Program-made: the position numbers and the translations under genes
Notes under the pieces: model-generated
The model's database searches: none
What the model saw: the letters and a program-made list of their open reading frames with translations, nothing else
What the model was told of the DNA's origin: nothing
From: Actinoallomurus purpureus
Lineage (GTDB): Bacteria; Actinomycetota; Actinomycetes; Streptosporangiales; Streptosporangiaceae
DNA length: 64,000 nucleotides
Reading direction: 5' to 3'
Assembly: GCF_024055795.1 (NCBI RefSeq)
Contig: NZ_JAMXMY010000013.1
Span: 62,001-126,000, forward strand
In this document: positions 34,344 to 50,520 of the stretch, piece by piece
Position numbering within the stretch: the stretch's first letter is position 1
Layout of the letters: each line of letters starts with the position of its first letter

Positions 34344-36911
34344 GTGAAGCGCATCAACGACTACGACCGGTTCTATGCCGCCGATCCGGATTTCTTCGAG
34401 GCCTCGGACAGGATTCCCGATGGGGACACCCGTCTCTCTTTCTTCTCGGCGGATGTGCCCGCGGGCTGGCGGCGTGAGGAGAACGGGTGGTGGGTTCGCC
34501 TGAATCCATCCGCGGAGGCAGGGCCCGAACAGGGGTGGATGATTCATGTTTCGGTCGCCGAGCATCTGGTCGAGCGCACGGTCGAGATCGTGGGCGGGTA
34601 CTGCCTGAATCACTCGATCGGATTCGAGGGCATCCGCAGCCGCCGGGCGGCCCGCGCGCTGAACGCCAAGCGCGCCGACCGCCGGCGAAGCGGCCGGCTG
34701 ATGACGCTTTTCCCGGCGGACGAAGCGCGGTTCACGACCGCGCTGCTCGACCTGGACGCCCTTTTGAAAGGACAGCCGGGCCCCTATGTGCTGGGCGCGC
34801 TGCGGCACGGCTCCGGCCCGCTCTATTGCCGATACGGCTCATTCGCCCCGGCCACCGAAACCGACGAGCACGGCGAACCGGTGAGCAGACTTCGCCGCCC
34901 GGACGGCCGGTTGGTCGTGGAGGACAGCGCTCCGGTGTTCCGTCCACCCGACTGGATCTCCGTCCCGGAGGTGCTGGACGCGGATCTGCGAGCGATGCGC
35001 GAAACCGTCCAAGGCGGGCTCCCGTACCGCATCGAGCGCGCCCTGGCGATCACCAACGCGGGCGGCACGTACGTGGGCGCGGATCGCCTGACCGGCGTGC
35101 GGGTCGTCCTGCGTGAGGCCCGGCCGCACGCGGGTCTCGACGAGCACGGCGAGGACGCGGTGACCCGGCTCGACCGGCATCGCGCGGCGCTGGAGCGGGC
35201 CGCGGGCCTGGAATGCGTGCCGGAACTGCTCGACTACCGCACCTTCGGCGAACACCGGTTCCTGATCGAGGAGTTCGTCGAAGGCGTGTCGCTGAACCTT
35301 TCGGTGCTCGCCGGCCTGCCGTTGCTCACTCACCAAGAGGCCGTACGCGAGTCCGGCGACGTCGCCACGTACACGAAATGGGCGATGGACGTCCTGGACG
35401 AGCTGCGGGACGCGGTGGACGGACTGCTCGGTCGCGGGATCCGGCTGGGCGAGCTCGATCCCGAGAACGTCGTGATCCGTCCGGACGGGCGCGTCGCACT
35501 GGTCGATCTCGAATCGGCGACATCGCTCGACGATGACCGTGCTCCGGCGGCCGACGACCCGCAGTTCTGCGTCCCCGCAGGTGTCCGTGGAGCCGCGGCG
35601 CACGAACATCTGCTCAACAGGCTGCGGCTGTGGCTGTTCCTCCCACTGCCGTACCACGAGCGGGCCAAGGTGCGGACGCTGTCCGAGGCCGTCACCCGGC
35701 ATTACCCGGTGCCGCCCGATTTCGGCGCGAACCTGGTGCACGTGCTGGGGTGCTCCGACCCCGACTCCGCCGGGGACGCGCTGGACCGGCCAGAGGCGAA
35801 CTGGCCGGAGATCCGGGACTCTCTCGTGCGCGGCATCCATGCGGTCGCGAGCCCGCATCGGCGGGACCGGCTGTTCCCGGGGACGCCGACGACTCCCACG
35901 ACGATCGGCGGCTACCCGCTCGGGTACGGGGCGGCAGGGGTTCTCTACGCCCTCGGCCAGGCGGGTGCCGAGATTCCGGAGGAGTACGTCGAGTGGCTGG
36001 CGAAGGCGGCCCTCGACGATCCCGCTCCCGTGCCGGGCCTCTACGACGGGCTACACGGCGTGGCGTTCGTCCTCGACCACCTCGGTCACCGCGAGACGGC
36101 ACTCACCGTGATCGAGCGTTCCCGGCCGCTGGATGAGACGGCGCGCTCGGCGGATCTGGGCGGCGGCCTGGCGGGCATCGCGCTGAACCTTCTCCACTTC
36201 GCCCGGGTGACCGGCGACGAGGAGATGCGGGCACGCGCCGTACGCCTCGGCGACGACCTTGCCGAACGCGTCCGGGATGGGCTCCCGGCGACCCCCGGCG
36301 GGCCGGAGCCGTTCGGCCTGCTGCACGGCCCGACCGGGCCGGCCCTGCTCTTTCAGCACCTGCACGCGCATACCGGCGAGCCCCGCTATCTGGACCTGGC
36401 CGACATGGCCCTGCGGCACGACCTCGACCGGTGCGTGACCCGTCCCGATGGCACGGTGCACCTGTTCGACGGCAGCCGCTACCTGACGTACCTGCACGGC
36501 GGGAGCAACGGCCTGGCCTTCGTCCTGCGGAACCAGCTCCGGCACCGTCCGGCCCCCGACCTGCAAGCGGCGCTCGAGGGCATCAGACGCGCGTGCCAAC
36601 CGGCCTGCGTCCATAACGCGGGACTGCTCCGCGGCCGCGCCGGCATGATCGCGACGCTGGCCGAGCTCGGCTTCGCCGAGGACGGCCCGGCCATCAGGGA
36701 CCAGGTCCGCCGGCTCGCCTGGCACGCCCGGCGGCGCCGTGGGCACCTGGTCTTTCCCGGTTTCCGCATGCGCCGGTTGGCCATGGATCTGGCGACCGGA
36801 TCCGCGGGCGTTCTGCTCGCCATCAACGCCGCGTTCGGGGAACGTACGGGGGTCCTTCCCCACCTCGATTCGCGGACGGCCACAACCGACACCACGGAGG
36901 GAGGGAGGTGA
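34344..36911 (+). CDS. Class III lanthipeptide synthetase LanKC, catalytically degenerate (LanKC1)
   Basis: This 855-residue protein has the three-domain LanKC order: lyase (about 1-200), kinase (about 220-440) and LanC-like cyclase (about 520-850). The cyclase repeats (YGAAGVLYAL, LYDGLHGVAFVLDHL, LLHGPTGPALLFQHL, YLHGGSNGLAFVL, LLRGRAGMIATL) lack the Cys-Cys-His zinc ligands, which points to class III rather than IV. Unusually, the lyase motif is GWMIHVS (Met66 for Lys), the second lyase Lys is Glu95 (GFEGIRS), and the kinase catalytic Asp is Glu370 (GELDPEN). The DLES metal Asp is kept. The stop overlaps the precursor start. It may be a scaffold or cyclase partner of LanKC2. Confidence 0.9.
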   Translation: MKRINDYDRFYAADPDFFEASDRIPDGDTRLSFFSADVPAGWRREENGWWVRLNPSAEAGPEQGWMIHVSVAEHLVERTVEIVGGYCLNHSIGFEGIRSRRAARALNAKRADRRRSGRLMTLFPADEARFTTALLDLDALLKGQPGPYVLGALRHGSGPLYCRYGSFAPATETDEHGEPVSRLRRPDGRLVVEDSAPVFRPPDWISVPEVLDADLRAMRETVQGGLPYRIERALAITNAGGTYVGADRLTGVRVVLREARPHAGLDEHGEDAVTRLDRHRAALERAAGLECVPELLDYRTFGEHRFLIEEFVEGVSLNLSVLAGLPLLTHQEAVRESGDVATYTKWAMDVLDELRDAVDGLLGRGIRLGELDPENVVIRPDGRVALVDLESATSLDDDRAPAADDPQFCVPAGVRGAAAHEHLLNRLRLWLFLPLPYHERAKVRTLSEAVTRHYPVPPDFGANLVHVLGCSDPDSAGDALDRPEANWPEIRDSLVRGIHAVASPHRRDRLFPGTPTTPTTIGGYPLGYGAAGVLYALGQAGAEIPEEYVEWLAKAALDDPAPVPGLYDGLHGVAFVLDHLGHRETALTVIERSRPLDETARSADLGGGLAGIALNLLHFARVTGDEEMRARAVRLGDDLAERVRDGLPATPGGPEPFGLLHGPTGPALLFQHLHAHTGEPRYLDLADMALRHDLDRCVTRPDGTVHLFDGSRYLTYLHGGSNGLAFVLRNQLRHRPAPDLQAALEGIRRACQPACVHNAGLLRGRAGMIATLAELGFAEDGPAIRDQVRRLAWHARRRRGHLVFPGFRMRRLAMDLATGSAGVLLAINAAFGERTGVLPHLDSRTATTDTTEGGR

Positions 36912-37012
36912 GAACCGTGGAGCAGATCCTTGCCCTGCAGGAGATGCAGGAGGACACCGTCTCCGTGCCGTCGAACTGCGTGAGCTGGACGTCGAGCAAC
37001 ACGGCCTTCTGA
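36908..37012 (+). CDS. Class III lanthipeptide precursor peptide
   Basis: This 34-codon gene lies between the two LanKC genes. The product starts MRTVEQILALQEMQE, with the ILxLQ leader motif recognised by class III synthetases. The core TVSVPSNC-VSWTSSNTAF has eight Ser/Thr and one Cys (Cys24). Ser19-x2-Ser22-x-Cys24 resembles the labionin motif, although the classic spacing before Cys is longer. GTG 36908 (overlapping the LanKC1 stop; GGAGG seven bases upstream) or GTG 36917 (GGGAGG eight bases upstream) can start it; the latter gives 31 residues. It is unusually short, with a leader of about 15 residues. Confidence 0.8.
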   Translation: MRTVEQILALQEMQEDTVSVPSNCVSWTSSNTAF

Positions 37013-37033
37013 CGCCAGGCGTCGGAAGCGTCC

Positions 37034-37075
37034 CCGGTGCCGGCCGGTCCTTTCACCGCGGCCGGCCGGCACCGG
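37034..37075 (+). terminator. Attenuating hairpin between precursor and LanKC2
   Basis: 13-base perfect arms CCGGTGCCGGCCG / CGGCCGGCACCGG with a 16-base loop lie 21 bases after the precursor stop. A hairpin here is common after RiPP precursor genes. It could cause partial termination or protect the precursor mRNA, raising precursor over synthetase. Confidence 0.7.
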
Positions 37076-37096
37076 CCAATCGCCTTCGGAGGGGAA

Positions 37097-39694
37097 ATGC
37101 TGGCCGAACTGTTTCTGGCGGCGGACCCGTTGTTCGCCGACGCCGTGGAGAACGTCGACGACGGCGGGACCAGATTCCAGCCACCCATGCGGGCCGGATG
37201 GACGCGGGTGGAAAGCGGCGGCTGGGTGCAACTGGCCAAGCGGGGTACGACCCTGCCGGACCAGGGATGGAAGATTCACGTCTCGGCCACCACGACCGAC
37301 GCGGCCAAAGTGATCGACACGGTCTGCGGCTACTGCTTCGAGCACGATTTGAGCCTGAAGTTTCTGCGCAGCAGGCAGATCATGGAGATCGCCAACAGCA
37401 AGGTGGCCGCACGCGCGTCCAGCGGAAAGCTGATCACCGTCTACCCGCCCGAACACCTCCTCGAACGGACGCTGAACGACCTTTCCGAGCTGCTCGCCGG
37501 CACCGAGGGGCCGTACGTGCTGAGCGACCTGCGGTGGGACGCCGGGCCGCTGTACGTCCGGTATGGCGCGTTCAGACCCCGGACCTGCTTTTCCGCCGAG
37601 GGCGAGCACGTGCCCGCCATCCGGGACCCGGCCGGACGCCTGACGCCCGACCTTCGCGGACCCACGTTCCGGCTGCCGCCCTGGGCACCGGTTCCCCATT
37701 TCATCGGGACGAGGATCGAGGCGAGGCGCGGGAAAGCGGAGCCGTTCCCCTACCGGGTCGAGAAGGCCCTGCGCCTGTCGAACGCCGGCGGCGTCTACCG
37801 CGCGACGCAACCGGAATCCGGCCGTACCGTGGTGCTTCGTGAGGCTCGGCCGCACGCCGGGCTGGACGACGCGGGCGACGACGCGGTCACCCGCCTGCTC
37901 CGCGCGCGGGCCATCCTGCAACGGCTGCAGGACGTCGACGTGGTCCCCAAGGTCCTCGCTCACCGCGTGCACTGGGAACACCACTTCCTCGTGGAAGAGT
38001 TCGTCGAGGGCGAGAGCCTGCTGGACGCCGTCGCCCGGCGGCACCCGCTGCGCCGCCCAGGTCACACCACGGCGAGCCGGGCCGAGTACGCGTGCTGGGC
38101 GCTGACCATCCTGGATCGCGTCGAGTCGGCCCTGGCCGGCCTGCACGAAAGGGGGATCGTCTTCGGCGACCTCCAGCCCGGCAACGTGATCGTCCGCCCC
38201 GACGGCCGGGTGTGCCTGGTCGACTTCGAGACGGCGCACGAGCTCTCGGATGACCCCGCGTCGGGCCTGGCCACCGCGGGCTTCGCCGCCTCGTGGGCAC
38301 GGTCCGGATTCGGTCCCGACGACTACGCTCTGCAATGCCTGCGCCTGGCCCTGTTCCTCCCCATCACCCAGCTCATCCGGTTCGATCCGGCCAAGATCGG
38401 AATCCTGGTGGACGCCGTCGAGGAGCTGTTCCCCGTGCCGGAAGGCTTCGGACGCCGATTGCGGCCACGTCTCGCCCCGCCTCCGAAGTTCGAGGCTCGC
38501 GTGCGGCCCGCGTCCCGGCACCGCGACTGCGCCGGGCCAGGGCATCTCCCCGCCCCGTCCTGGCCGGCCACCCGGGACGACCCGGCGTGGCCGACGGTAC
38601 TGGACGCGATGCGAGACGCGATCGTCTGCAGTGCGACGCCGGGGCGCGAGGACCGGCTCTTCCCCGGAGATCCCCGCCAGTTCGAGGGGCAGGGAGCCAC
38701 CCTCGCCTACGGCGCCGCGGGTGTCCTCTACGCGCTGCACGCCACGGCACGCACCGGCTATCCCGGCTTCGAGGAACACGTCGACTGGCTGATCCGCGCG
38801 AACAGGCGCATCGACACGCCGCGCGCGGGGCTCTGCGACGGACTCACGGGAGTCGCGTACGTCCTCGCCGAGCTGGGCCAGCACGACGAAGCCCTCGACG
38901 CGCTGAGCCGTCTGCGCGGCCTCGACCTCCGCGGGAGCGCGGCCGGCCTGTTCGGCGGTCTCGCCGGGATCGGCCTCGGCCTGCTGCACCTCCGCGGCGG
39001 GCTCGTCGGCGGCGGCCCGGACGAGGAGGCGGTCCGGATCGCCGACCGGCTGACTCGCGTGATCGACGGAGACGTGAGCGACGTCGCCACCGTGACCCGC
39101 CCCGGCCTCATGCACGGCTGGTCGGGCGTCGCACTGCTGCTCACCCGCCTGTACGGGGTGACCGGGCAGGTGCGCTATCTCGACGCCGCCTCGACCGCGT
39201 TGGCCAGGGACATCGCCCACTGCGGCGTCCCGGCCGACGGATGCCTCCAAGTACGAGAGGGGACCGACTGGCGCCTGAGCCTCACGCGAGGAAGCGCCGG
39301 CATCGCGGTCGCGCTGCGGGAATACCTCGCGTACCGGGCGGATGACGACCACTACCGCCACGTCCTCGATGCCGTCCGCGCCGGGCTGTGCACGGATCTG
39401 ATGCTGTCCTCGGGGCTTCTCGAGGGGCGTTCGGGAGTCCTGGCCGCCCTGGCACATCTGTCCGGCGCCGACGGCGATCCCGCGGTCGACACGCACCTTC
39501 GTCACCTCGGCTGGCACGCGGTCCGCTTCCACAGGCACCTCGCCTTCCCATCGGGCGACCTCAATCGGCTGTCCATGGACCTGGGCACCGGAACAGCGGG
39601 GGTGCTCCTCGCCGTCCACGGCGCGCTCGGACTGGGCGGCGCCCCGCGGGCCTGGGCCGGTACGGCCCCCCTGACGGCGAGCCCGGCCCGTTGA
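37097..39694 (+). CDS. Class III lanthipeptide synthetase LanKC, intact (LanKC2)
   Basis: This 865-residue LanKC starts at ATG 37097 with GGAGGGG upstream. The lyase domain keeps GWKIHVS (Lys59, His61) and LKFLRS (Lys88), with the same 29-residue spacing as the degenerate sites in LanKC1. The kinase has NAGGVYRA, VVLREARPHAG, catalytic GDLQPGN (Asp358) and LVDFETA. The cyclase domain has YGAAGVLYAL, LCDGLTGVAYVLAEL, LMHGWSGVALLL and LLEGRSGVLAAL, with no zinc Cys/His set. It likely phosphorylates Ser/Thr of the precursor, eliminates phosphate and forms the rings. The TTG of the exporter gene overlaps its stop. Confidence 0.92.
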   Translation: MLAELFLAADPLFADAVENVDDGGTRFQPPMRAGWTRVESGGWVQLAKRGTTLPDQGWKIHVSATTTDAAKVIDTVCGYCFEHDLSLKFLRSRQIMEIANSKVAARASSGKLITVYPPEHLLERTLNDLSELLAGTEGPYVLSDLRWDAGPLYVRYGAFRPRTCFSAEGEHVPAIRDPAGRLTPDLRGPTFRLPPWAPVPHFIGTRIEARRGKAEPFPYRVEKALRLSNAGGVYRATQPESGRTVVLREARPHAGLDDAGDDAVTRLLRARAILQRLQDVDVVPKVLAHRVHWEHHFLVEEFVEGESLLDAVARRHPLRRPGHTTASRAEYACWALTILDRVESALAGLHERGIVFGDLQPGNVIVRPDGRVCLVDFETAHELSDDPASGLATAGFAASWARSGFGPDDYALQCLRLALFLPITQLIRFDPAKIGILVDAVEELFPVPEGFGRRLRPRLAPPPKFEARVRPASRHRDCAGPGHLPAPSWPATRDDPAWPTVLDAMRDAIVCSATPGREDRLFPGDPRQFEGQGATLAYGAAGVLYALHATARTGYPGFEEHVDWLIRANRRIDTPRAGLCDGLTGVAYVLAELGQHDEALDALSRLRGLDLRGSAAGLFGGLAGIGLGLLHLRGGLVGGGPDEEAVRIADRLTRVIDGDVSDVATVTRPGLMHGWSGVALLLTRLYGVTGQVRYLDAASTALARDIAHCGVPADGCLQVREGTDWRLSLTRGSAGIAVALREYLAYRADDDHYRHVLDAVRAGLCTDLMLSSGLLEGRSGVLAALAHLSGADGDPAVDTHLRHLGWHAVRFHRHLAFPSGDLNRLSMDLGTGTAGVLLAVHGALGLGGAPRAWAGTAPLTASPAR

Positions 39695-40968
39695 CCCGGC
39701 CGCTGACGTCGAGGCGCCCGGCAGGTGACGCGGACGGGCGGCTGTCCTGTAACCGCGACTTCCTGATCATGTCGATCGGGAACGGCCTGTCGCAGTTGGG
39801 CACGGGCGCGGCGGGCATGGTGCTGCCGCTGGTGGTCCTGCGTTCGACCGGCTCGACGCTGTGGGTCGGCGTGGTCGAGGCCGTCTGGGCGGCGTCCGTC
39901 GGCCTCGCATGTGTGCCGGCCGGTCCGATCGTGGACCGCTTCGACCGGCGTACCGTCCTGCTGATCTGCGATGCGGGACGCGCACTGGCCAGTGCCGCGC
40001 TGGCCCTTGCCTCGGTCGGTGGCCGCCCACCGGTCTGGGTCCTCTTGAGTGCGGGCGTCGTCCTGGGTTTCCTGGGCGCACCGTCCAACGCCGCGGTCCT
40101 CGCCTCGCTCCGCCGGCTCGTTCCCGGGTCACGGCTGTCCACGGCCGTGTCGGTGACACTGGGGCGTATCCAGGCCGCGAGTCTGATCGGCCCGATCGTC
40201 GGCGGCTTCCTGTTCAGCGTGTCGCCCAGCGTTCCGTTCTGGTTCGACGCCTGCTCGTTCGTCATGTCCGGGGTGTGCGTGTTCGCGGTGCGCAGGTCCC
40301 TGCGCGCCACCCCGGCCGCCGGGTCCGGGTTCCTGAGCGACCTCACGGCCGGATTCCGATTCGTGTGGAGGGAGAGGCTTCTGCGGACCTGCCTGCTGAC
40401 GACCGTGGCGCTCGGCCTGATCCTCCAGGGCATCCTCCTGCTCGTCATCATGGTCAACGCCCAGCGCGGCGCGAGCGGGCCATCGGTCGGCCTCATCGTG
40501 GCCGCCGCCACCGGAGGAGCCCTGGTCGGCACCGTGCTCGCCCCGATCGCCGGCGACAGGTTCCCGCCCGTACGGCTCGTCATGGGCGCCACCGCGGTCA
40601 CCGGCTGCCTGGTGCTCGCCATGGCCGCCGCCCGCGACCGGATCGCCCTGGCCGCCCTGCTCGCCCTGGCCATGGTCGTCATGTCCATCGCCGGGAGCGT
40701 GCTGACCACGACCCGGCTGCTGGGCACGCCCGACGGCTTCCAGGGACGGGTGAACAGCGTCTTCAACCTCACTCAGCTCGCCGCGGCACTCGGCCCCACC
40801 TTGGCCGGCCTGATGCTCACCCGCCTGTCCGGCGGCGCAAGCCTGCTGATCTTCGCCGGGCTGCTGTGCGCCGTGACGCTCCTGCTGACCCGGCTGAAGG
40901 CCCCGGCGCCGGAGGCGGTGGCAGGGTCCCCCGATCCCGACGCGCCGGCCCCCGGAGGTCGAGCATGA
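39691..40968 (+). CDS. MFS transporter of the lanthipeptide cluster
   Basis: This 425-residue, 12-helix MFS protein of the enterobactin-exporter-like (MFS_3) type has IMSIGNGLSQLGTGAAGMVL, the loop motif GPIVDRFDRRTVLL and VPFWFDACSFVMSGV. Start TTG 39691 (TTGA overlap with LanKC2) is used because no later start precedes helix 1. It probably exports the modified peptide or confers self-resistance. Class III clusters more often use ABC exporters, so MFS use is noteworthy. Confidence 0.88.
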   Translation: MTRPLTSRRPAGDADGRLSCNRDFLIMSIGNGLSQLGTGAAGMVLPLVVLRSTGSTLWVGVVEAVWAASVGLACVPAGPIVDRFDRRTVLLICDAGRALASAALALASVGGRPPVWVLLSAGVVLGFLGAPSNAAVLASLRRLVPGSRLSTAVSVTLGRIQAASLIGPIVGGFLFSVSPSVPFWFDACSFVMSGVCVFAVRRSLRATPAAGSGFLSDLTAGFRFVWRERLLRTCLLTTVALGLILQGILLLVIMVNAQRGASGPSVGLIVAAATGGALVGTVLAPIAGDRFPPVRLVMGATAVTGCLVLAMAAARDRIALAALLALAMVVMSIAGSVLTTTRLLGTPDGFQGRVNSVFNLTQLAAALGPTLAGLMLTRLSGGASLLIFAGLLCAVTLLLTRLKAPAPEAVAGSPDPDAPAPGGRA

Positions 40969-41927
40969 CCGCCTACTCCATCATGATGCCGTTCGCCCCT
41001 GCGCGTCCCCAGCAGATCCTGCCCTACGCCGCGCTCACGCAATGGAGCAAGGCGCACCGCCTGTGGCAGGGGCAGGCGGACATCAGCGACCCGAACCAGA
41101 CCTTCGTGTTCGCGGCGGCGTCGGGTTTCCGCGTCCCGGTCGGGACGGGCGTGCTGCTCATGCCGAACCGCCACCCCGCCACCGCGGCGCAACTCGCCCA
41201 GACGCTGGCGATGACCATGGGCCACCCGGTCGTCGCCGGTTACGGTCCGGGTGCCGAGGCCCTCCAGCGCGCCTTGCTCGGCATGCCGTATCGGAGCCCT
41301 CTGACCGCCACGCGCGAGTACCTGACCATCATGCGCGGGCTGCTGGCCGGGGAGAGGGTCGAGTACGAGGGGGAGTACTTCTCGTGCCGCTTCGCCCTGA
41401 GGCCCGTCCCGAGCCCGCCTGTCGAGGTCGGCGTGGGGGTGCTCGGACCGGCCATGGCCCGGGTCGCCGGCGAGCTGGCCGACGTGGCCATCACCTGGCT
41501 GGTCCCCGCCGCCCACCTCCAGGACGTGATCGTCCCCGCGCTTCGCGAGGGCGCCGAGGCGGCCGGACGTCCGGTGCCCCGCCTGGTGTCCCTCGTCCCG
41601 GTGGCCCTCGACACGGACGGACGCGACCTGCCCGATCTGGTGATCGCCGGGCATTCCGGCCACCTCCGCCTGCCGCACTACGCCACGATGCTGCGAAGGT
41701 GCGGTATCGACACCGACACCGCCGACCCACGCGCCGCCGCGACGGCGCTGATCAAGGGCGGCGCGTTCCTCGGCGGCGGTCTCGCCGACGTCTGCGAGCA
41801 ACTGCGCCATCATGCCGACGCCGGCGCCGACGAGATCGCTTTGAATCTCTCCGGCGTGCATGTGCGGAACGGCGAGACGACGGCGTTGCGGGAACTCCAC
41901 ATGATCTTGGAGGAGGTCGCCGCATGA
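40965..41927 (+). CDS. LLM-class (F420-dependent type) oxidoreductase of the lanthipeptide cluster
   Basis: This 320-residue luciferase-like TIM-barrel protein has VPVGTGVLLMPNRHPATAAQ, TMGHPVVAGYGPGAEALQRA, LTATREYLTIMRGLLAGE and VEVGVGVLGPAMARVAGELA (cofactor phosphate loop region). ATG 40965 overlaps the exporter stop. F420H2-dependent LLM enzymes (the LanJC group described with lexapeptide) reduce dehydroalanine to D-alanine in lanthipeptides. The precursor here has more Ser/Thr than one Cys can capture, so such a role fits. F420 versus FMN use is not decided by sequence. Confidence 0.8.
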   Translation: MTAYSIMMPFAPARPQQILPYAALTQWSKAHRLWQGQADISDPNQTFVFAAASGFRVPVGTGVLLMPNRHPATAAQLAQTLAMTMGHPVVAGYGPGAEALQRALLGMPYRSPLTATREYLTIMRGLLAGERVEYEGEYFSCRFALRPVPSPPVEVGVGVLGPAMARVAGELADVAITWLVPAAHLQDVIVPALREGAEAAGRPVPRLVSLVPVALDTDGRDLPDLVIAGHSGHLRLPHYATMLRRCGIDTDTADPRAAATALIKGGAFLGGGLADVCEQLRHHADAGADEIALNLSGVHVRNGETTALRELHMILEEVAA

Positions 41928-42023: not shown

Positions 42024-42773
42024 TCAGGGCAGGAAGATCTCGGACTTGACGGCATCTGCCACATCAGGCGGGAAGTCGTTCAGGTAGAAATGATCGCCGG
42101 AGAAGGTCCGCACAGAGAAGTTGGACGATGTGTGGTCGGCCCAGCAGCACATATCATTTCGCGATACACGTGGGTCCGCTCGCCCCACGAAGGCGGTGAT
42201 CGGACAAGGCAGCACTGTATGAATATCGCCGCGATAGGCGTGTATCGCCCGGTAGTCGCTGCGCAGCGGTGGAAGAAAAAGCTCCCTGAGCTCTTCATTC
42301 TCGAAGAACGCCGGATTAGTGCCATGAAGCAACCGCAGTTCGTTCACCATGGCGTCCTCGCTGTCCCAATGCCGAGTACTTCGATGTTGTGAGGGCGCCT
42401 GTATCCCTGAAACAATGAGTCTGGCAGGCGATATGCCGTATTCAAGTTCTAGGCGTTTGGCGGTTTCGAAGGCGATCAGGCCTCCCATGCTATGTCCAAA
42501 AAGGACCAGGCGCGGCTGCGTCTCCGCGCCGATGAGCCTGGCGACTTCGTCGGCGATCATCCCCAGGTCTTCGATTGCGGGCTCCGCGTAGCGGTCCTGC
42601 CGTCCGGGGTACTGTACTCCCAGCACTTGGATTTTCGGAGAAAGAGCCGCGGACAGGGGAAAGAAATAGCCTGCGGATCCGCCGGCGTATGGGAAGCACA
42701 ACAAGCGGTGCGTCGAGTCGCCGCCGTCATGGAAGGAGCGTATCCAGGACGCGTAGGGGCGAAAGTGCGTCAT
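42024..42773 (-). CDS. Type II thioesterase of the NRPS/PKS cluster
   Basis: This 249-residue alpha/beta-hydrolase of the GrsT/RifR type has RLLCFPYAGGSAGYFFPLSA, nucleophile LFGHSMGGLIAFETA, ITAFVGRADPRV (Asp region) and FSGDHFYL (catalytic His). It clears mis-primed carrier proteins. Its ATG overlaps the stop of the A-PCP gene (ATGA), so the two are cotranscribed. Confidence 0.93.
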   Translation of the reverse strand: MTHFRPYASWIRSFHDGGDSTHRLLCFPYAGGSAGYFFPLSAALSPKIQVLGVQYPGRQDRYAEPAIEDLGMIADEVARLIGAETQPRLVLFGHSMGGLIAFETAKRLELEYGISPARLIVSGIQAPSQHRSTRHWDSEDAMVNELRLLHGTNPAFFENEELRELFLPPLRSDYRAIHAYRGDIHTVLPCPITAFVGRADPRVSRNDMCCWADHTSSNFSVRTFSGDHFYLNDFPPDVADAVKSEIFLP

Positions 42774-44533
42774 ATGGCAATCCGTTCCAAGATCAATGCG
42801 CTCAATGCACCGATGGTCGGCCGCTTCAGGAACTCGTGCATGTCGATTCTTACTCGGAAGCGCACATGAACCTTCGTGATTATGACCGCCGCCGACAGAG
42901 ATGTCCCGCCCAATTCCATGAAATGGCGGTCGGTGGCGATATCGCCGAAACCAAGCACGCCGGACCAGATGGCGGCAACGGCTCTCTGTACATCATCCAT
43001 ATCGTCGTTTCCGCCCGGCAGTACGGTGACGGGGCCGCCCAACCGCCGACGGTCGACCTTCCCGTTAGGAGACAATGGCAACGATTCGGCGGCGATGATG
43101 TGCCGGGGAACCATATAGTCGGGTAGCCGGCCGGTCAAATATGATCGAAGTTCCTGCCAATCGGCCGAATAGCCTGGTTCGGTTACCACGTGAGCTACCA
43201 GCTGCCGTTCACCATGTGGGGGCGTCCATGCCACGACTGCACACTCGTGGACCTGCGGGTGGCGGCGTAGCTCTATCTCGACTTCGCCAGGCTCGATCCG
43301 GTATCCGCGTATTTTAAGTTGATCGTCTGTCCGGCCGACGTAATTCAGGACCCCGTCCGCGCGTTGAGCGACCAGATCGCCGGTGCGATACATGCGTATC
43401 TGTCGACCGTTCATACGGATCACGGGAAAACGCTCCTCTGTGAGTTGAGGTTCGTGGGCGTACCCGTGCGCCAGGCCAACACCCGCCAGCCATAGTTCGC
43501 CTGAACCGTCAGGGATCATCTCGGGGTCCGCCGGTGCACGGACATGAGCCTCGATCCCAGGGATCGGCAGACCGATGGGAGGAGCATCCGGCCACGATTG
43601 CGGCGGGCCGGAGAGCGTATGGGCGAGAGCCACATGCGTCTCTGCGGGGCCGTAGTGATTGTGCAGACGGCATTCCGGGATCCGGCTGAAGAATTCGCGG
43701 ATGCGAGCAGTGATATGGAGCGCCTCGCCCGCAGCGGCGACCTCGAGCAGGGACGTGGGGACGCAACTGAACTCGACGGCCAGATCGGCCAGTCGGCTCA
43801 GAACCACCGGCGGCACGAAGAGGCGCTCGATCTCCCAGGTCGTGAGTAGGTCAAGTATGCGCGGCAGGTCGCTACGTTCGTCGTCGGCCGGAGCGTAAAG
43901 ACACCCTCCGCTGCACCATGCTGTGAACACCTCCTGGATGAAGACGTCGAAGCCCAGCGGCGCGAATAGTAGAGTGCGGAGGGGCTTCGAAGAGGTGCTC
44001 GCGAGCGTCCATTCGATGAGGTTGTCCAGGCAGCGATGCGGCATCGAGATGGCTTTGGGGCCCCCTGTTGAACCGGACGTGAAGACCAAATAGGCGGCGT
44101 CTTCATGGCCGATGTTCTCGTTGGATCGGGATCTCGTATGCTCTACGGCTTCGTCGCCGGTCATCACAAGTACACGGGACACAGGTGTCGTCCATGCCGG
44201 AACCTGGTCCGGCGTGACCAGGGCGAGCCGAGCACGGCTGCGCCGCCACATATGACGGATGCGCTCTTCGGGGTACCGGGGATCGACGATACAGAACGCT
44301 CCTCCCGCCCGGAGAATCGCCAATACGGCTACTCCCAGAGCGAGGCCGCGCGGCGCCTGAACGAGTACCACGTCACCCGGACGGAGCCCTTCCCGTATGA
44401 GGCGCGTGGATAGAACGGTCGCACGGCTGTCCAGTTCACCGTAGGTGAGCCGGCCATCTGAGGTGATTAGCGCAGGCGTGTCCGTGCGCTGTCTTATCTG
44501 AGTCTCGATCAGCTCCATGATACGGCTGGCCAA
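42770..44533 (-). CDS. NRPS adenylation-PCP didomain, proline-type specificity
   Basis: This 587-residue protein has A-domain cores LTYGEL, YLVFTSGSTGGPKAIS, GFDVFIQEVF, NHYGPAETHVA, MYRTGDLVAQ, DDQLKIRGYRIEPGE and LSPNGKVDRRRL. A PCP follows (HFMELGGTSLSAAV). My hand alignment to GrsA gives pocket residues D, V, Q, F, A, A, H, V, A, K, close to proline codes (DVQ--AHV-K). There is no condensation domain, so it is a free-standing loading unit. TTG 44533 has GAGAGGAG upstream; ATG 44518 lacks one. No acyl-CoA dehydrogenase for pyrrole formation is present. Confidence 0.9.
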   Translation of the reverse strand: MASRIMELIETQIRQRTDTPALITSDGRLTYGELDSRATVLSTRLIREGLRPGDVVLVQAPRGLALGVAVLAILRAGGAFCIVDPRYPEERIRHMWRRSRARLALVTPDQVPAWTTPVSRVLVMTGDEAVEHTRSRSNENIGHEDAAYLVFTSGSTGGPKAISMPHRCLDNLIEWTLASTSSKPLRTLLFAPLGFDVFIQEVFTAWCSGGCLYAPADDERSDLPRILDLLTTWEIERLFVPPVVLSRLADLAVEFSCVPTSLLEVAAAGEALHITARIREFFSRIPECRLHNHYGPAETHVALAHTLSGPPQSWPDAPPIGLPIPGIEAHVRAPADPEMIPDGSGELWLAGVGLAHGYAHEPQLTEERFPVIRMNGRQIRMYRTGDLVAQRADGVLNYVGRTDDQLKIRGYRIEPGEVEIELRRHPQVHECAVVAWTPPHGERQLVAHVVTEPGYSADWQELRSYLTGRLPDYMVPRHIIAAESLPLSPNGKVDRRRLGGPVTVLPGGNDDMDDVQRAVAAIWSGVLGFGDIATDRHFMELGGTSLSAAVIITKVHVRFRVRIDMHEFLKRPTIGALSALILERIAI

Positions 44534-44930
44534 GAGTCGCTCCTCTCGCGCATGGCGGCTGGCTTCCAGGCTCCGGACACCCCTGGTGTGGAACGATCCA
44601 GGTCGCTAGACTGGCGACCGGGTACCGGACGGTGGTCCGGAGTTCGTACAGTACCACTCAGTCGTGAATACCTGACTTTCTGATTGTTGACCAGCAGAGC
44701 GAACCGAAGACGCTTCTGATTTGAGCCGCCGGACGAATTGGAGTCGGCCACGACCGGCGACCGGTCATGCCGTGCCACGCTATTCCCTGACACGCTGGAG
44801 ACTGAACATCATCACGAATGTAGTTGGCGTGGATTCGCGAGCAACTGCACGCCACCATTGATCATCATCGCTCTCGTGGTGCATTCATCACTCAATGCAC
44901 GGTAATAATTTGTGATATCGGAGGTGCAAC
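44534..44930. promoter_or_regulatory. Divergent control region of the NRPS/PKS cluster
   Basis: This 397-base gap lies between the A-PCP and methyltransferase genes, with no supported gene. It is markedly more A/T-rich than the purine region. Two short perfect inverted repeats occur: CCGGAC-N4-GTCCGG at 44625-44640 and GACCGG-CGA-CCGGTC at 44752-44766. They are candidate operators. Confidence 0.5.
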
Positions 44931-45683
44931 GTGCAAAGTGCCGCGAACTTGTATCTTGACCTCATGAAGAAGGTTTTGGCAAACACTATTTACGAGGACC
45001 CGCCAATTCCTGCGAGCTGGGCGCCGGCCAAGGAGTACGACGAGCTCAATCGTCGGCTAGGAGTGGACTGGCCGAGCGTTGCGCATACCATGATCGGAAT
45101 GCGTCGTCTTGAAAACGTGGAGAGCTGTATGACCACGGTGTTGACAGACGGAATCCCTGGCGACTTCATCGAGACCGGCGTATGGCGTGGAGGGACGTGC
45201 ATCTTCATGCGGGCCATACTGAAGGCATATGGCATTGAGAATCGCCGAGTTTGGGTAGCGGACTCTTTTCAAGGAATGCCGCCTGCGGATTCCTCTGTTC
45301 ACGAGGGTGACCGTCGGCTCGCGAGTGATCGTTACAACGATTTGATGGCGATCGATCTGCCTACCGTGCGGCGGAATTTTGAGCGCTATGGCCTGCTCGA
45401 CAGGCAGGTGGAATTCTTGCCCGGCTGGTTCCGGGACACGCTGCCGGGCGCCCCGATAGATCGCCTCGCGATCCTTCGACTAGACAGCGATCTCTACGAA
45501 TCAACGATGGAAACGCTCGTTCAGCTCTATCCGAAGCTTTCTCCTGGCGGATTTGTAATCATCGATGATTATCATATTCCCGTCTGCAGGGAAGCCGTTC
45601 ATGATTGGCGTGCCGAGTTCAAGGTCGAGGACCCCATCGAGGATATCGACGGTCTGGGCGCCTTCTGGCGCCGCAGCAAATGA
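44931..45683 (+). CDS. TylF/MycF-type SAM-dependent O-methyltransferase
   Basis: This 250-residue protein has LYLDLMKKVLANTIYEDPP, SAM-binding GDFIETGVWRGGTCIFMRA, VWVADSFQGMPPAD, the metal-binding RLDSDLYESTMET and FVIIDDYHIPVCREAV. These match the TylF/MycF family of magnesium-dependent methyltransferases. Original members act on macrolide sugars, but the family is also used on amino acids and small phenols in NRPS pathways. No sugar genes are nearby, so O-methylation of the peptide/polyketide is likely. GGAGGTG precedes GTG 44931. Confidence 0.9.
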   Translation: MQSAANLYLDLMKKVLANTIYEDPPIPASWAPAKEYDELNRRLGVDWPSVAHTMIGMRRLENVESCMTTVLTDGIPGDFIETGVWRGGTCIFMRAILKAYGIENRRVWVADSFQGMPPADSSVHEGDRRLASDRYNDLMAIDLPTVRRNFERYGLLDRQVEFLPGWFRDTLPGAPIDRLAILRLDSDLYESTMETLVQLYPKLSPGGFVIIDDYHIPVCREAVHDWRAEFKVEDPIEDIDGLGAFWRRSK

Positions 45684-45698
45684 AGCGGAGCGTATGGC

Positions 45699-48600
45699 GT
45701 GACAGTCAATAGGGAAGATCTGCTGGCCCTCGTTGCCGGTCAGCTCGGCTGTCCGGTGGGCGAACTGGACATCGACAAGAACTTCATAGAGTCCGGGGCG
45801 GATTCTTTGAGTCTGCTGGCCGTGGCCAGGAGGCTTCAGGTGGACTTTGGTGTGCGAGTATCGGTAAAAGAATTGTTCACCGAGATCGACACCCCGCTTA
45901 AACTGATCCAAATGTTGTCCGGGAAGGTATCCGAGCGTGAGCCGCAAGTGATGCAGGCGACGACGAGCTCCCAGGAAGAGCCGCCTGGTGTCACGCCCTC
46001 ACATATGCCGGTGGTGGCATCTACTATGCCGGCGGTGGCATCGACATCGAGCCCGGCGTACGAATCCACTTCCGCTGTGAGTGGCGTCTCTGAGTCCGTC
46101 ATCTCGGTGCTCAACGGTCAGCTTGAGCTGGCCGAGAAGATGATCTCTAGATTCTCCGAGCTGACTTCCCAGCAACTGCGTGTCCTGGGCACGCTACGGC
46201 CTGACCCAATGCCGTCGGTAGAGCCGGTGAGGACGTCTCCGCCCGCCGCACAGGCGGCATCGCCCGTCTCGAGACCCCAGGCAGCCTCGGACCCTCGGCC
46301 GCTGGATTCTGACAGGACGCGTCCGCCTCGTCCCGCCACTCCGGCGGCCTCGCAGAACCGACGCCCGGAATTCAGTCTCTATTTCTTCGGTGACTATCCC
46401 AAACAAAGTGCGGCCGCCAGCTATGAGCACCTGCTGAGTGCCGCGACCTTTGCCGATCAAAATGGATTCCATGCGGTGTGGATTCCTGAACGCCACTTCC
46501 ATTCCTTCGGGTCGCTGTTTCCCAACCCTTCAGTGCTGGCCGCTTCCCTGGCTGGTCGCACTTCCCGAATCCGACTCCATGCCGGTTCCGTGGTTCTTCC
46601 GCTGCACAACCCCATTCGAGTGGCTGAAGAGTGGTCCGTGGTGGACAACCTGTCCGGTGGTCGTGTAGGGATCAGCTTTGCTAGCGGATGGCACTCTAAC
46701 GATTTCGTCCTTGCCCCGGACAACTATGGTCGGCAGCGCGAAGTGATGTATGAGTACTTGGACACCTTCCGGCAGTTGTGGGCGGGTGATCCCGTCCGAG
46801 TGGCCTCGGGTAGCGGTGAACAGATTGATGTGACATTGCATCCCGCTCCGGTGCAGGACGCCCCGCCGCTCTTCGCCGCCGTTCTCTCGAATCCTGAGAG
46901 CTACGAAAGGGCCGCCCGGAGCGGGCTTGGCATCGTAACGAACCTCATGTCGCAGAGCATCGAGGATCTGCGGGAGAACATCTCCCTCTATCGCCGCACG
47001 AGAGCTGCGCATGGGTTCGATCCTGAGACGGGCCGGGTAGTGGTGCTCGTGCACACCTATCTGGGTGACGACGCGGTTCGCGCCAGGCGGGAGGCGTTCC
47101 AGCCTTTCTGTGACTATCTACGCTCTTCACTCACCCTCTTCAACAATGTCGCCAACAGTCTCGGCATCGATGTCGACCTGGCTGAAACCGAGCAAGATGA
47201 TCTGGACTTCGTCCTGGAACGGGCGTACGAACGGTACTGCGAGAGTCGGGCCCTAATCGGGAGCGTTGCCGGCAGCCGCGCGGTGATGGACGCCCTGATA
47301 GCGGCCGGCGCAGACGAAATCGGGTGCTTCATCGACTTCGGCGTGGCGCCTGACCTGATGTTGGCGGCACTTCCGGAGTTGGACGCGCTTCGGAGGGAAT
47401 ACAATTCGCGTCCGCTGGAGGCCGTCGGCTCCTCGAGCTCGGCCGAGCCGGCTTCGCCGCTTCAGCGCCGGATGTGGCTGCTGGACCGGATGTATCCCGG
47501 TGGGAACACGTATCTCGAGCCAAAAGCCATCCTCTTCGAAGGGGCACTCGACACGGTGGCTCTTCATGCGGCGCTACAGCGTGTGGTGGGTAGACACCCG
47601 AACCTGCGCACGGTCTTCCGGGAAGGCGACGGCGTTCTGAAACAAGTGCTCCTGCCGACGATTCCGGTCGAGTGTCCCATCGTGGATCTGACCGGGCTCG
47701 ACGACGACGCCGCTCTGATAAAGCTCAGGGATATGGAGCATGAGTCCGGCTTCGATCTCAGGAGCGGGCCGTTGCTGCGCGCCAGGCTCGGCAGGCTCGG
47801 GGATGAGCGCCATCTGCTGTACATCGCGGCGCACCATATTGTCTTCGACGCACAGTCCACCCAGATTTTCGCCCGTGACCTCGCTGCGTTTTACCGCGCG
47901 TGGCCCGATGAACCCGCAGGTCTGGCGGCACTGGGCTCCCGGCCCAGCACGCCGAACGATCAATCGCCGGAGCGGGCGGCGGAAAGCGTTGAGTTCTGGA
48001 AACGGCAGTTGGCGGACGCGGCTCCCTTGATGTTGCCCGCAGACCGGCCGCGACAGGTAGGTCCGTCGGTCAACGGTGCAAGCTTTGTGCACAACATGGA
48101 TGTCCTGCTCTCCGAGGAGATCCGTCGTTTCAGTAGAGCCCAAGGGTGCACGTTGTTCATGACGCTCCTCGGGGCGGTCGGCTCGGTCCTGGGCCGATTT
48201 TCCCTGCAGGAGGACGTCACGCTGGGAACGGTGGTCAACAACCGGCCAGGCGGATCTGAGCATGTCATCGGAATGTTCGTTGAGACGATCGCCATTCGCC
48301 TCGATCTTTCAGGTGATCCCGGCTTCGGCGAACTGATCCGACGCGTGAGAGCCCGTTCAACTCATGCTCTCGATTACGCAGACGTTCCATTCGATCAGGT
48401 GGTCGAAGCGATCAACCCGGACCGAGTCGCAGGCGAGAACCCACTTTTCCAGGTGATGGTGGAATTCGAGGAACAGGTCACCCTCGACCTCGACACTTCG
48501 GGGGTGTCCGCAGAACTGCTGGACGTTCCGAGGACTGTGACCCCGTTCGATCTTACGCTGTACTTCGCGGATCGGGACAGCGGCATCCGCTGCACAGCCG

Positions 48601-50519
48601 AGTACGACGCGGACCTCTTCGACGAGGCCACGGTGCGTCGCATCCTGGAGTACGTCGACGACCTACTACGCCGTGCCGTGAGATCTCCCGACGCCCCGCT
48701 GTCCCGGCTGCGGGCTCTGACGGAGAGCGATGAGCGATTGCAGGCGCGGTGGCAGGGAGAGCGCACCACCGCGTCGCCTGCCGGTCTGCACGAACTCGTT
48801 GAGGAACAGGCTCGACGGACACCAGACGCAATCGCGATCACAGGTGGCGGTGGCTCGGTGAGCTACCGTGATCTCGACGCATCGGCGAACCGGCTCGCAC
48901 ACCAGCTCGTGAGCAGGGGAATTTCGCGTGGCGGGCGGGTGGCGATATGCCTGCCTAGGGGCGCGGACCAGGTCACCGCCATCCTTGCTGTGCTGAAGTG
49001 TGGCGCTGCGTATGTTCCCGTCGATCGATCGCTGCCGATCGAGCGTCGCAGGTTCATGATGGAAGACAGCGGGGCCGGATTGGTCATAGCGAGCCGATCT
49101 CTGGACACGTCGGAAGAGGAAGTGCTTCCGTACTCTGCTTTGTGGATCGAGGACATCGATTCCGGCGGGACGACCGCCTCACTGGGGTGGGCGGTAGACC
49201 CCGAAGACACGGCATATTGCATCTACACCTCCGGATCGACCGGTTCACCGAAGGCGGTCGCCGTCCCGCACCGTGGCCCGGTGAACCTTGTCCGCTGGCA
49301 ACTGCGGGCCCTGGGCCCACTGGACACTCTGCAATGGGCTTCGACCGGATTCGATGTGAGTGTTCAGGAGATTTTCACGACCCTGGCTTCTGGGGCGACA
49401 CTGGTCGTCCTCGACGACGAGATCCGCTATGAACCGGCGGCCGTCGCCGAGCACATGAGGCGGCACAACGTCCAGCGCATCAGCGTGCCTTTCACACCGC
49501 TCAAGTACTTGGTCGACGAACTCAAGAAGGTTCCGTCCCTGCGTCAGGTGCTGATCGCCGGCGAGGAGGTCACGATCACCCCCGGGCTGCGGAGTCTTGC
49601 CGAGGAGCACCCGGATCTCACGCTGTACAACCAGTACGGACCGACAGAAGCCTCGGTCGTGGTGACGTCACACAAGATAGACGTGGCCACCGAAACCGTT
49701 CCCCCCATCGGCAGGCCCATCGACAACGTCTCGGTGCGCATCGTGGACGGCTTCGGGCGGCCCGTGCCGGTCGGCGCCGTCGGGGAGCTTCTGATCGGCG
49801 GCTCCGCGCTTGCGCACGGATACCTCGGCGACCCGGAGGCCACGAGCAAAGGGTTCGGGCCCGATCCGATCGGCTCGAAGGAGCGCTTTTACCACACGGG
49901 GGATCTGGCGCGCTGGCATGCGGACGGCACGCTCGGTTACCACGGGCGTAACGACAGCCAGGTGAAGATCCGGGGGAACCGGGTCGAGCCCGGGGAGGTC
50001 GAGTGGGCACTCAGCCGGCTGCCGGAAGTCCAGGAGGCAGTCGTACTCGCCCGCCCGGACAGAGCAGGAGAGAACCAACTGGTCGCCTATGTGGTGCTGC
50101 GGGATGGGGCTGTCGGCGAAGGCGATTGGAGTCCGCCGCGTGCGCAACTCGCCTCCTCGTTGCCGCACTACCTGGTTCCGCAGGCTTGGGTACGGCTGGA
50201 CCGAATGCCGACCGGTCCCAACGGCAAGCTTGATCGGGAGCGGCTCCGGGACATGGATACCGCGTCCCCTGCCGACACCGGCAGATCCGCGTTGACCGAG
50301 ATGGAGCTCTCGGTACAGAAGCTGTGGGCCGCTGAGTTGGGCAATGACGCCATTCCGCCGGAGCGGTCCTTCTTCGACGTGGGAGGCAGCTCATTGTCTG
50401 CCGTCCGCCTCTTGGAGCGGATCCGAGCCGAGCTGGGGCACAAGGTTCCCATGGCGGACTTCCTCGGCGCACCGACGGTCCGCGCAGTGGCGGCATGGCT
50501 GGAAGAGCGGGAGCTCTGA
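45699..50519 (+). CDS. NRPS: PCP - LLM monooxygenase - C - A - PCP
   Basis: This 1606-residue megasynthase has an N-terminal carrier (SGADSLS, Ser36), a Pro/Ser/Thr-rich linker (about 90-220), then an embedded luciferase-like monooxygenase of the MupA/Atu3671 family (about 225-567; FSLYFFGDYPK, WIPERHFHSFG, GRVGISFASGWHSNDF). The C domain (about 584-1010) has HHIVFD at 712-717. The A domain (about 1030-1510) has IYTSGSTGSPKA and GPNGKLDRER, and the last PCP carries Ser1565 (GGSSLS). Hand-read A pocket: D, V, Q, S, L, A, Q, V, V, K, which I cannot assign. The first carrier has no A domain of its own and is probably charged in trans. Confidence 0.93.
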   Translation: MTVNREDLLALVAGQLGCPVGELDIDKNFIESGADSLSLLAVARRLQVDFGVRVSVKELFTEIDTPLKLIQMLSGKVSEREPQVMQATTSSQEEPPGVTPSHMPVVASTMPAVASTSSPAYESTSAVSGVSESVISVLNGQLELAEKMISRFSELTSQQLRVLGTLRPDPMPSVEPVRTSPPAAQAASPVSRPQAASDPRPLDSDRTRPPRPATPAASQNRRPEFSLYFFGDYPKQSAAASYEHLLSAATFADQNGFHAVWIPERHFHSFGSLFPNPSVLAASLAGRTSRIRLHAGSVVLPLHNPIRVAEEWSVVDNLSGGRVGISFASGWHSNDFVLAPDNYGRQREVMYEYLDTFRQLWAGDPVRVASGSGEQIDVTLHPAPVQDAPPLFAAVLSNPESYERAARSGLGIVTNLMSQSIEDLRENISLYRRTRAAHGFDPETGRVVVLVHTYLGDDAVRARREAFQPFCDYLRSSLTLFNNVANSLGIDVDLAETEQDDLDFVLERAYERYCESRALIGSVAGSRAVMDALIAAGADEIGCFIDFGVAPDLMLAALPELDALRREYNSRPLEAVGSSSSAEPASPLQRRMWLLDRMYPGGNTYLEPKAILFEGALDTVALHAALQRVVGRHPNLRTVFREGDGVLKQVLLPTIPVECPIVDLTGLDDDAALIKLRDMEHESGFDLRSGPLLRARLGRLGDERHLLYIAAHHIVFDAQSTQIFARDLAAFYRAWPDEPAGLAALGSRPSTPNDQSPERAAESVEFWKRQLADAAPLMLPADRPRQVGPSVNGASFVHNMDVLLSEEIRRFSRAQGCTLFMTLLGAVGSVLGRFSLQEDVTLGTVVNNRPGGSEHVIGMFVETIAIRLDLSGDPGFGELIRRVRARSTHALDYADVPFDQVVEAINPDRVAGENPLFQVMVEFEEQVTLDLDTSGVSAELLDVPRTVTPFDLTLYFADRDSGIRCTAEYDADLFDEATVRRILEYVDDLLRRAVRSPDAPLSRLRALTESDERLQARWQGERTTASPAGLHELVEEQARRTPDAIAITGGGGSVSYRDLDASANRLAHQLVSRGISRGGRVAICLPRGADQVTAILAVLKCGAAYVPVDRSLPIERRRFMMEDSGAGLVIASRSLDTSEEEVLPYSALWIEDIDSGGTTASLGWAVDPEDTAYCIYTSGSTGSPKAVAVPHRGPVNLVRWQLRALGPLDTLQWASTGFDVSVQEIFTTLASGATLVVLDDEIRYEPAAVAEHMRRHNVQRISVPFTPLKYLVDELKKVPSLRQVLIAGEEVTITPGLRSLAEEHPDLTLYNQYGPTEASVVVTSHKIDVATETVPPIGRPIDNVSVRIVDGFGRPVPVGAVGELLIGGSALAHGYLGDPEATSKGFGPDPIGSKERFYHTGDLARWHADGTLGYHGRNDSQVKIRGNRVEPGEVEWALSRLPEVQEAVVLARPDRAGENQLVAYVVLRDGAVGEGDWSPPRAQLASSLPHYLVPQAWVRLDRMPTGPNGKLDRERLRDMDTASPADTGRSALTEMELSVQKLWAAELGNDAIPPERSFFDVGGSSLSAVRLLERIRAELGHKVPMADFLGAPTVRAVAAWLEEREL

Positions 50520-50520
50520 T

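Follow-up and report, generated by a model that had tools for sequence, protein, structure and literature searches.

The LanKC pair and its precursor gene

The window, that is, the whole stretch of 64,000 nucleotides analysed here (positions 62,001 to 126,000 of contig NZ_JAMXMY010000013.1, from the 9.25 Mb, high-GC genome of Actinoallomurus purpureus), contains two genes for class III lanthipeptide synthetases (LanKC) that flank a single precursor peptide gene on the forward strand. The first, lanKC1 (34344-36911), encodes a three-domain LanKC without the lyase and kinase catalytic residues, and the second, lanKC2 (37097-39694), encodes a LanKC with residues of both kinds. The lanKC2 frame is open from 37037, and its probable start is the ATG at 37097, behind GGAGGGG, rather than the GTG at 37037. 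The two proteins share 41% identity and score 797 and 896 bits, respectively, on NF038151, the curated class III LanKC model (cut-off 575). On NF038150, the class IV LanL model (cut-off 650), they reach only 297 and 375 bits, and the positions of the LanL zinc ligands are occupied by His718, Leu762 and Arg763 in LanKC1 and by Thr, Leu and Glu in LanKC2. As in class III cyclases, LanKC1 has a LANC_like match without the Cys-Cys-His zinc ligands.

The precursor gene (36917-37012, forward strand) has a GTG start and a good ribosome-binding site, and encodes a 31-residue peptide, VEQILALQEMQEDTVSVPSNCVSWTSSNTAF, with the leader motif ILALQ and one Cys. It is the sole precursor between lanKC1 and lanKC2, which agrees with the preliminary description of this DNA. 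With its LxLQ leader and its Ser/Thr/Cys core encoded beside a LanKC gene, the peptide has the marks of a class III precursor; it scores below the cut-offs of the profiles NF038160 (23.6 bits, cut-off 27) and NF038154 (19.8 bits, cut-off 22). In place of an Sx2Sx3C motif it has SVPSNC, in which one residue separates the second Ser from the Cys.

The catalytic positions were assigned by reference to the ThurKC residues reported as tested by mutation in passages of the ThurKC study (PMC10604976), and ThurKC numbering is used for them below. In the lyase domain of LanKC1, Lys65 is replaced by Met (Met66, 34539-34541), Lys94 by Glu (Glu95, 34626-34628), Lys117 by Arg, Asp152 by Ala (Ala152, 34797-34799) and Arg191 by Ser, and His67, Lys108 and Arg163 are retained. 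The five lyase positions used as a residue test (Lys65, His67, Lys94, Asp152 and Arg163) thus read Met, His, Glu, Ala and Arg. In the kinase domain, the β3 Lys257 is replaced by Arg, the αC Glu279 by His and the catalytic base Asp364 by Glu (Glu370, 35451-35453), so that the corresponding test positions (Lys257, Glu279, Asp364, Asn369 and Asp382) read Arg, His, Glu, Asn and Asp. A Pfam scan at an E-value of 0.001 gave a protein kinase (Pkinase) match for LanKC2 and none for LanKC1. Lys65, Lys94, Lys117, Asp152, Asp364, Asn369 and Asp382 are each conserved in all 62 other LanKCs compared (58 from searches of relatives and four from a later search), and the losses in LanKC1 are therefore more than chance. 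According to the passages on ThurKC, the K65A variant gives no turnover and the K94A variant only unmodified peptide (PMC10604976). The loss of dehydratase function predicted for LanKC1 is thus well supported.

The motifs on which the preliminary description had based this loss are all present (GWMIHVS, GFEGIRS and GELDPEN in LanKC1; GWKIHVS, LKFLRS and GDLQPGN in LanKC2). So is the 29-residue spacing of the two lyase positions, which are residues 66 and 95 of LanKC1 and, with ATG 37097 as the start, residues 59 and 88 of LanKC2, and between which the alignment is ungapped. The loss is real and extends further than had been described, also affecting Lys117, Asp152, Arg191 and Glu279. LanKC2, which had been called intact, deserves the word only in part. 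All of its lyase residues and the kinase residues Asp364, Asn369 and Asp382 are present, but its kinase N-lobe is unusual, with Arg248 (37838-37840) at Lys257 and Ala270 (37904-37906) at Glu279. Arg at Lys257 is usual among LanKC2 proteins (14 of 16). Glu279 is kept by 15 of the 16, the window copy being the sole exception, so its loss is not a family feature. Lys65, Lys94, Lys117, Asp152, Asp364, Asn369 and Asp382 are kept in all 16 LanKC2 proteins.

Conservation and history of the pair

Two-LanKC loci were found 17 times in 16 genomes including that of the window, 16 of them in 15 other genomes. When 149 relatives and 341 genomes of the family (overlapping sets) were searched by similarity, the only hits besides LanKC1 itself were relatives of up to 51% identity, and all of these whose stretches were aligned have the dehydratase residues. 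The suggestion from these searches that LanKC1 was unique to the window genome was overturned by a scan of genome contigs with a nucleotide pattern encoding QGW-(not Lys)-(Ile/Val)-His-Val. Nine of the 73 stretches matched by this pattern contain LanKC1 orthologues with 51-53% identity to LanKC1, all in Streptomyces (S. klenkii, S. triculaminicus, S. lasiicapitis, S. alboflavus, S. roseoverticillatus, S. hiroshimensis, S. griseocarneus, S. flavofungini and Streptomyces sp. NRRL B-1347). Another six loci, in five genomes, came from whole-genome searches of 392 genomes of the genus of S. klenkii (G400), and a seventeenth locus from such a search of 394 genomes of the class. Because the DNA pattern favours high-GC codons, these counts are lower bounds. 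LanKC1-type proteins occur in 8 of the 392 genomes of that genus, which fits the earlier expectation that a two-LanKC system would be new or rare.

In 17 of 17 loci a lanKC2 orthologue lies immediately 3′ of lanKC1 on the same strand, together with one or two one-Cys precursors of 31-37 residues that are intergenic or overlap the end of lanKC1. The residue, divergence and retention calculations cover 16 loci, the seventeenth having been fetched later. Lys65, Lys94, Lys117, Asp152 and Asp364 are missing from all 16 aligned LanKC1 proteins, as well as from the seventeenth, which was checked separately; Asn369 is missing from 11 of the 16 and Asp382 from 12. One genome (G756) carries two copies of a LanKC1-precursor-LanKC2-transporter cassette (L176 and L177) from distant branches of the trees. 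A different sort of tandem LanKC pair, in which both members keep the checked lyase and kinase residues, was observed at L080 (7702-10416 and 11036-13921, reverse strand).

The 16 LanKC1 and 16 LanKC2 sequences each form one clade (SH-like approximate likelihood ratio test, SH-aLRT, 100; bootstrap 100 on seven sequences each). The two clades are not sisters, a tree joining them being rejected by the approximately unbiased (AU) test with p-AU 1.4e-5 (14 against 14 sequences, 28 in total). The LanKC1 and LanKC2 trees have 9 of 13 splits in common; none of 1000 label shuffles gave more than 4. As judged from these sequences, the pair and its precursor are co-inherited. A recent tandem duplication or simple decay was rejected on the conserved pairing, the shared losses, the separate clades and the AU test.

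The sister group of LanKC1 consists of 17 single LanKCs (L039-L042, L070-L078 and L181-L184) whose precursors have the Cys ahead of Ser/Thr (HPC in 13 of 17). That of LanKC2 is less firm (92/87) and comprises single LanKCs of the window's own genome and one relative, with SSNKSxICC precursors. A first, smaller tree had placed LanKC2 beside the LanKC1/L039 group (88/79) and not with L045/L027; it was superseded by the larger trees and the AU test. A radical S-adenosylmethionine (SAM) gene lies directly upstream of lanKC1 in all 16 loci outside the window (for example, L156 5255-6337 and L175 5815-7059), and relatives of it (51-56% identity) occur in 13 of the 17 stretches of the LanKC1 sister group (L040-L042, L071, L073-L078 and L181-L183). 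Next to the window pair no such gene was detected, and the window's genome as a whole offers nothing closer than a match of 33% identity over 135 residues. We infer that LanKC1 probably served this peptide family before LanKC2, which was recruited to it.

In the four loci scanned, the best NCBIfam match of the radical SAM protein is the mycofactocin maturase, far under its cut-off. Conserved frames of 441 and 315 residues upstream of the radical SAM gene were dropped; in L156 a histidine kinase frame occupies the opposite strand. In the 17 sister LanKCs, the β3 Lys257 is replaced by Leu (10), Ser (4), Val (2) or Arg (1), Asp364, Asn369 and Asp382 are kept, and a basic residue stands near ThurKC position 294 in 16 of the 17. 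Kinases lacking the customary ATP-binding lysine would merit biochemical study.

The LanKC1 cyclase domain and a proposed division of labour

The LanC-like cyclase domain of LanKC1 (residues ~479-842, 35778-36869), with the pocket residues His661, His718 and Arg763, is the least diverged part of the protein. Across the columns that are at least 95% conserved among the 62 comparison LanKCs, the LanKC1 proteins retain 0.68 in the lyase, 0.78 in the kinase and 0.97 in the cyclase (0.80, 0.86 and 0.98 for the window copy), while the LanKC2 proteins retain 0.96, 0.95 and 0.92 (1.00, 0.97 and 0.92 for the window copy). The ratio of the distances in the cyclase to those in the lyase and kinase is 0.78 (0.65-0.92) for LanKC1, compared with 1.29 (1.12-1.55) for the 17 sister LanKCs and 1.23 (1.02-1.37) for the 45 other single LanKCs, showing that the cyclase half of LanKC1 is the less diverged one, opposite to what single LanKCs show; the intervals come from a column bootstrap, with 20 drawn sequences for the group of 45. 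In a paired comparison, the conservation of LanKC1 minus that of LanKC2 is −7.8 in the lyase and −11.7 in the kinase, with intervals that exclude zero.

The pocket also carries residues that are specific to LanKC1. Arg at ThurKC position 771 is found in 16 of 16 LanKC1 proteins and His at position 726 in 14 of 16, and both are absent from all 16 LanKC2 proteins and all 62 other LanKCs. Passages of the ThurKC study place positions 726, 770 and 771 where NisC has its zinc ligands (PMC10604976). Of the ThurKC leader contacts, Arg112, Tyr243 and Phe306 are kept in all 16 LanKC1 proteins, Glu258 in 15 and Tyr148 in 14. Structure models with mean predicted local distance difference test (pLDDT) scores of 66.6 and 74.8 are adequate for the fold, not for the active site or a complex. 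The AlphaFold model of LanKC1 from 12 sequences (pLDDT 74.8) aligns with ThurKC over 766 residues (Z 32.7) with a root-mean-square deviation (rmsd) of 10.6, and the domain arrangement is therefore poorly reproduced; its cyclase aligns with eukaryotic LanCL2 over 333 residues (Z 28.1, rmsd 3.7).

With modest confidence, we favour a split class III system in which LanKC2 dehydrates the peptide and LanKC1 keeps leader binding and cyclisation, suggesting that the job of one enzyme is divided between two. LanKC2 would bind the ILxLQ leader, its kinase would phosphorylate Ser/Thr and its lyase would eliminate the phosphate. LanKC1, predicted to be unable to phosphorylate or eliminate but to retain the three-domain fold, most leader contacts and a specialised metal-free cyclase pocket, would close rings on the peptide dehydrated by LanKC2, perhaps within a LanKC1-LanKC2 complex. 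As the single Cys precedes most Ser/Thr, the ring probably runs from the Cys to downstream dehydroamino acids. The preliminary description had seen in LanKC1 a pseudo-synthetase acting as scaffold, leader binder or cyclase. The pairing of a LanKC that lacks dehydratase residues with a LanKC2 that looks competent for dehydration is strongly supported, and it recurs in 17 of 17 loci. Among the three roles, the domain-wise divergence and the specific pocket residues speak for the cyclase, and most leader contacts are kept. More tentatively, the pair may be an obligate heteromeric synthetase whose halves stem from two LanKC lineages. In this view LanKC1 would have been the original synthetase of the peptide family, and would have given up dehydration and specialised in metal-free cyclisation, its His-His-Arg pocket joining the N-terminal Cys to downstream dehydroamino acids; LanKC2 would have been recruited as the dehydratase; and the radical SAM enzyme would add a further modification in the 16 other loci.

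Several observations weigh against the split system. The window copy still has the kinase residues Asn369 and Asp382, and the replacement of Lys117 is conservative (Arg) in 8 of 16 LanKC1 proteins. In the leader pocket, Phe236 is replaced in all 16 LanKC1 proteins, although 58 of the 62 other LanKCs have it; Trp302 is likewise replaced in all 16, a position that is Gly in 38 of the 62 others. His667, found in 16 of 16 LanKC1 proteins, is not special, since it also occurs in 12 of 16 LanKC2 proteins and 22 of 62 others. The advantage of LanKC1 over LanKC2 in cyclase identity is not significant (+1.7, −1.5 to 5.1). Furthermore, the distance ratio of LanKC2, 1.22 (0.98-1.45), is like that of single LanKCs, with a cyclase that is not detectably relaxed, so that LanKC2 may cyclise by itself. 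A reciprocal loss of cyclase in LanKC2, considered on account of its slightly lower retention (0.92), is not claimed, because its rate ratio is the same as in single LanKCs.

Since the LanKC2 cyclase is not relaxed and its conserved columns are mostly kept, LanKC1 could instead be a non-catalytic partner, binding the leader and/or LanKC2 and activating or steering LanKC2, which would dehydrate and cyclise; we regard this as a serious but doubtful alternative. The leader contacts would fit such a scaffold or activator, and with 0.68-0.78 of the conserved columns kept, the shape of the LanKC1 lyase and kinase domains is retained. Passages on ThurKC describe domains that cooperate and an active kinase that is set by leader binding (PMC10604976). 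Because the window LanKC2 lacks the β3 Lys and the αC Glu, help in trans is also conceivable, although the αC Glu is present in 15 of 16 LanKC2 proteins. A purely non-catalytic role leaves unexplained why the cyclase half of LanKC1 is its least diverged part and why it bears the Arg771/His726 signature, which none of the 62 other LanKCs has. It is unlikely that both enzymes cyclise, with LanKC2 making one ring and LanKC1 adding another, or one of different orientation, whether on a shared precursor or on separate ones. Both cyclase halves are conserved, one or two precursors occur in L176 and in 8 of the first 9 Streptomyces loci (clear calls), and the precursors of the two sister groups differ in order (Cys-first against SSNKSxICC), but one Cys per precursor limits thioether rings to one.

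Residual kinase or lyase activity of LanKC1 through other residues, or some other chemistry, appears very improbable. His67, Lys108, Arg163, Asn369 and Asp382 are present in the window copy, and Glu can, rarely, replace Asp. However, Asn369 and Asp382 are lost from most orthologues, as counted above, and the ThurKC passages report that a single change to Ala at Lys65 or Lys94 abolishes activity (PMC10604976). We give least credence to LanKC1 as a decaying duplicate without function: its catalytic residues are gone, but against this reading stand an intact frame with the same set of losses in each of the 17 paired loci, a single clade and cyclase columns retained at 0.97.

Related systems and neighbouring genes

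The pair shares with the class III enzymes ThurKC, CurKC, PneKC and SalKC (NF038151) the lyase-kinase-cyclase order and fold, the metal-free cyclase, the LxLQ leader and the short adjacent precursor. These are described as single trifunctional enzymes, whereas in every locus found here the LanKC that lacks dehydratase residues has a partner LanKC from another branch. In passages of the ThurKC study, mutation of one domain disturbs the others (PMC10604976), and the class III cyclase has therefore been difficult to examine in isolation. A naturally occurring LanKC that has kept its cyclase but lost its lyase and kinase residues would separate the steps and offer a direct test of metal-free thioether or labionin formation. 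The closest single enzymes, the LanKC1 sisters, resemble the paired system in their Cys-first precursors and, in 13 of 17, in the radical SAM family of the 16 other two-LanKC loci; unlike LanKC1, they keep the lyase and kinase catalytic residues save Lys257, and no second LanKC occurs in the stretches fetched.

LanX/RosX of class Va, as described in passages of PMC12291118, is also a kinase-like partner without a kinase role that stands beside separate dehydration enzymes and proved to be a cyclase. By the same description, RosX differs in being a separate kinase-fold protein that makes aminovinyl-methylcysteine (AviMeCys) after a Cys decarboxylase; LanKC1 is a three-domain protein whose conserved part is LanC-like, and a scan of neighbouring genes revealed no decarboxylase. 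Like the kinase-fold cyclase RosX, LanKC1 would be a clear example of a pseudoenzyme partner in a lanthipeptide pathway. LanKC_Hbt, a LanKC subgroup that likewise stands out by its cyclase domain, is represented by NorKC of noursin, which also has a one-Cys precursor; according to passages of PMC10206099, however, a single LanKC makes all crosslinks there and the special link requires a core His. The window precursor contains no His and so, by the NorKC description, does not provide for a histidinobutyrine link.

The titles, opening parts of abstracts and passages of the open-access literature searched describe neither a LanKC pair nor a degenerate LanKC, and by that measure two-LanKC class III lanthipeptide biosynthesis is new. 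Walker et al. classified class III clusters according to whether the LanC protein has a kinase match, as passages of PMC7268733 describe; LanKC1, having no Pfam kinase match, does not pass this filter. The absence of Lys from GWxIHV and of Asp from GELxP, together with Arg in GLLRGR, provides a handle for finding more LanKC1 proteins.

Downstream of lanKC2 lies a gene for a major facilitator superfamily (MFS) transporter (39769-40968, forward strand; start uncertain, TTG 39691 or ATG 39769), with an orthologue downstream of lanKC2 in 10 of the 16 two-LanKC loci outside the window. A promoter and terminator scan gave no promoter-like site and 3 terminator-like sites against 2.3 expected. The stop of the MFS gene is overlapped by a gene for a luciferase-like (F420-type) oxidoreductase (40965-41927, forward strand) of uncertain cluster membership, which is absent from 33 other loci searched and from the seventeenth two-LanKC locus. 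F420-dependent reductases are thought to reduce dehydroamino acids in class V clusters, RosJ being so named in passages of PMC12291118, and the window enzyme could do likewise, which we offer as a lead only. At 42024-53607 the window continues with an adjoining nonribosomal peptide synthetase/polyketide synthase (NRPS/PKS) cluster, consisting of a thioesterase, an adenylation domain, an NRPS with a MupA-type luciferase-like monooxygenase and a type I PKS. The NRPS/PKS and lanKC clusters may be unrelated neighbours, and the oxidoreductase at 40965-41927 could belong to either.

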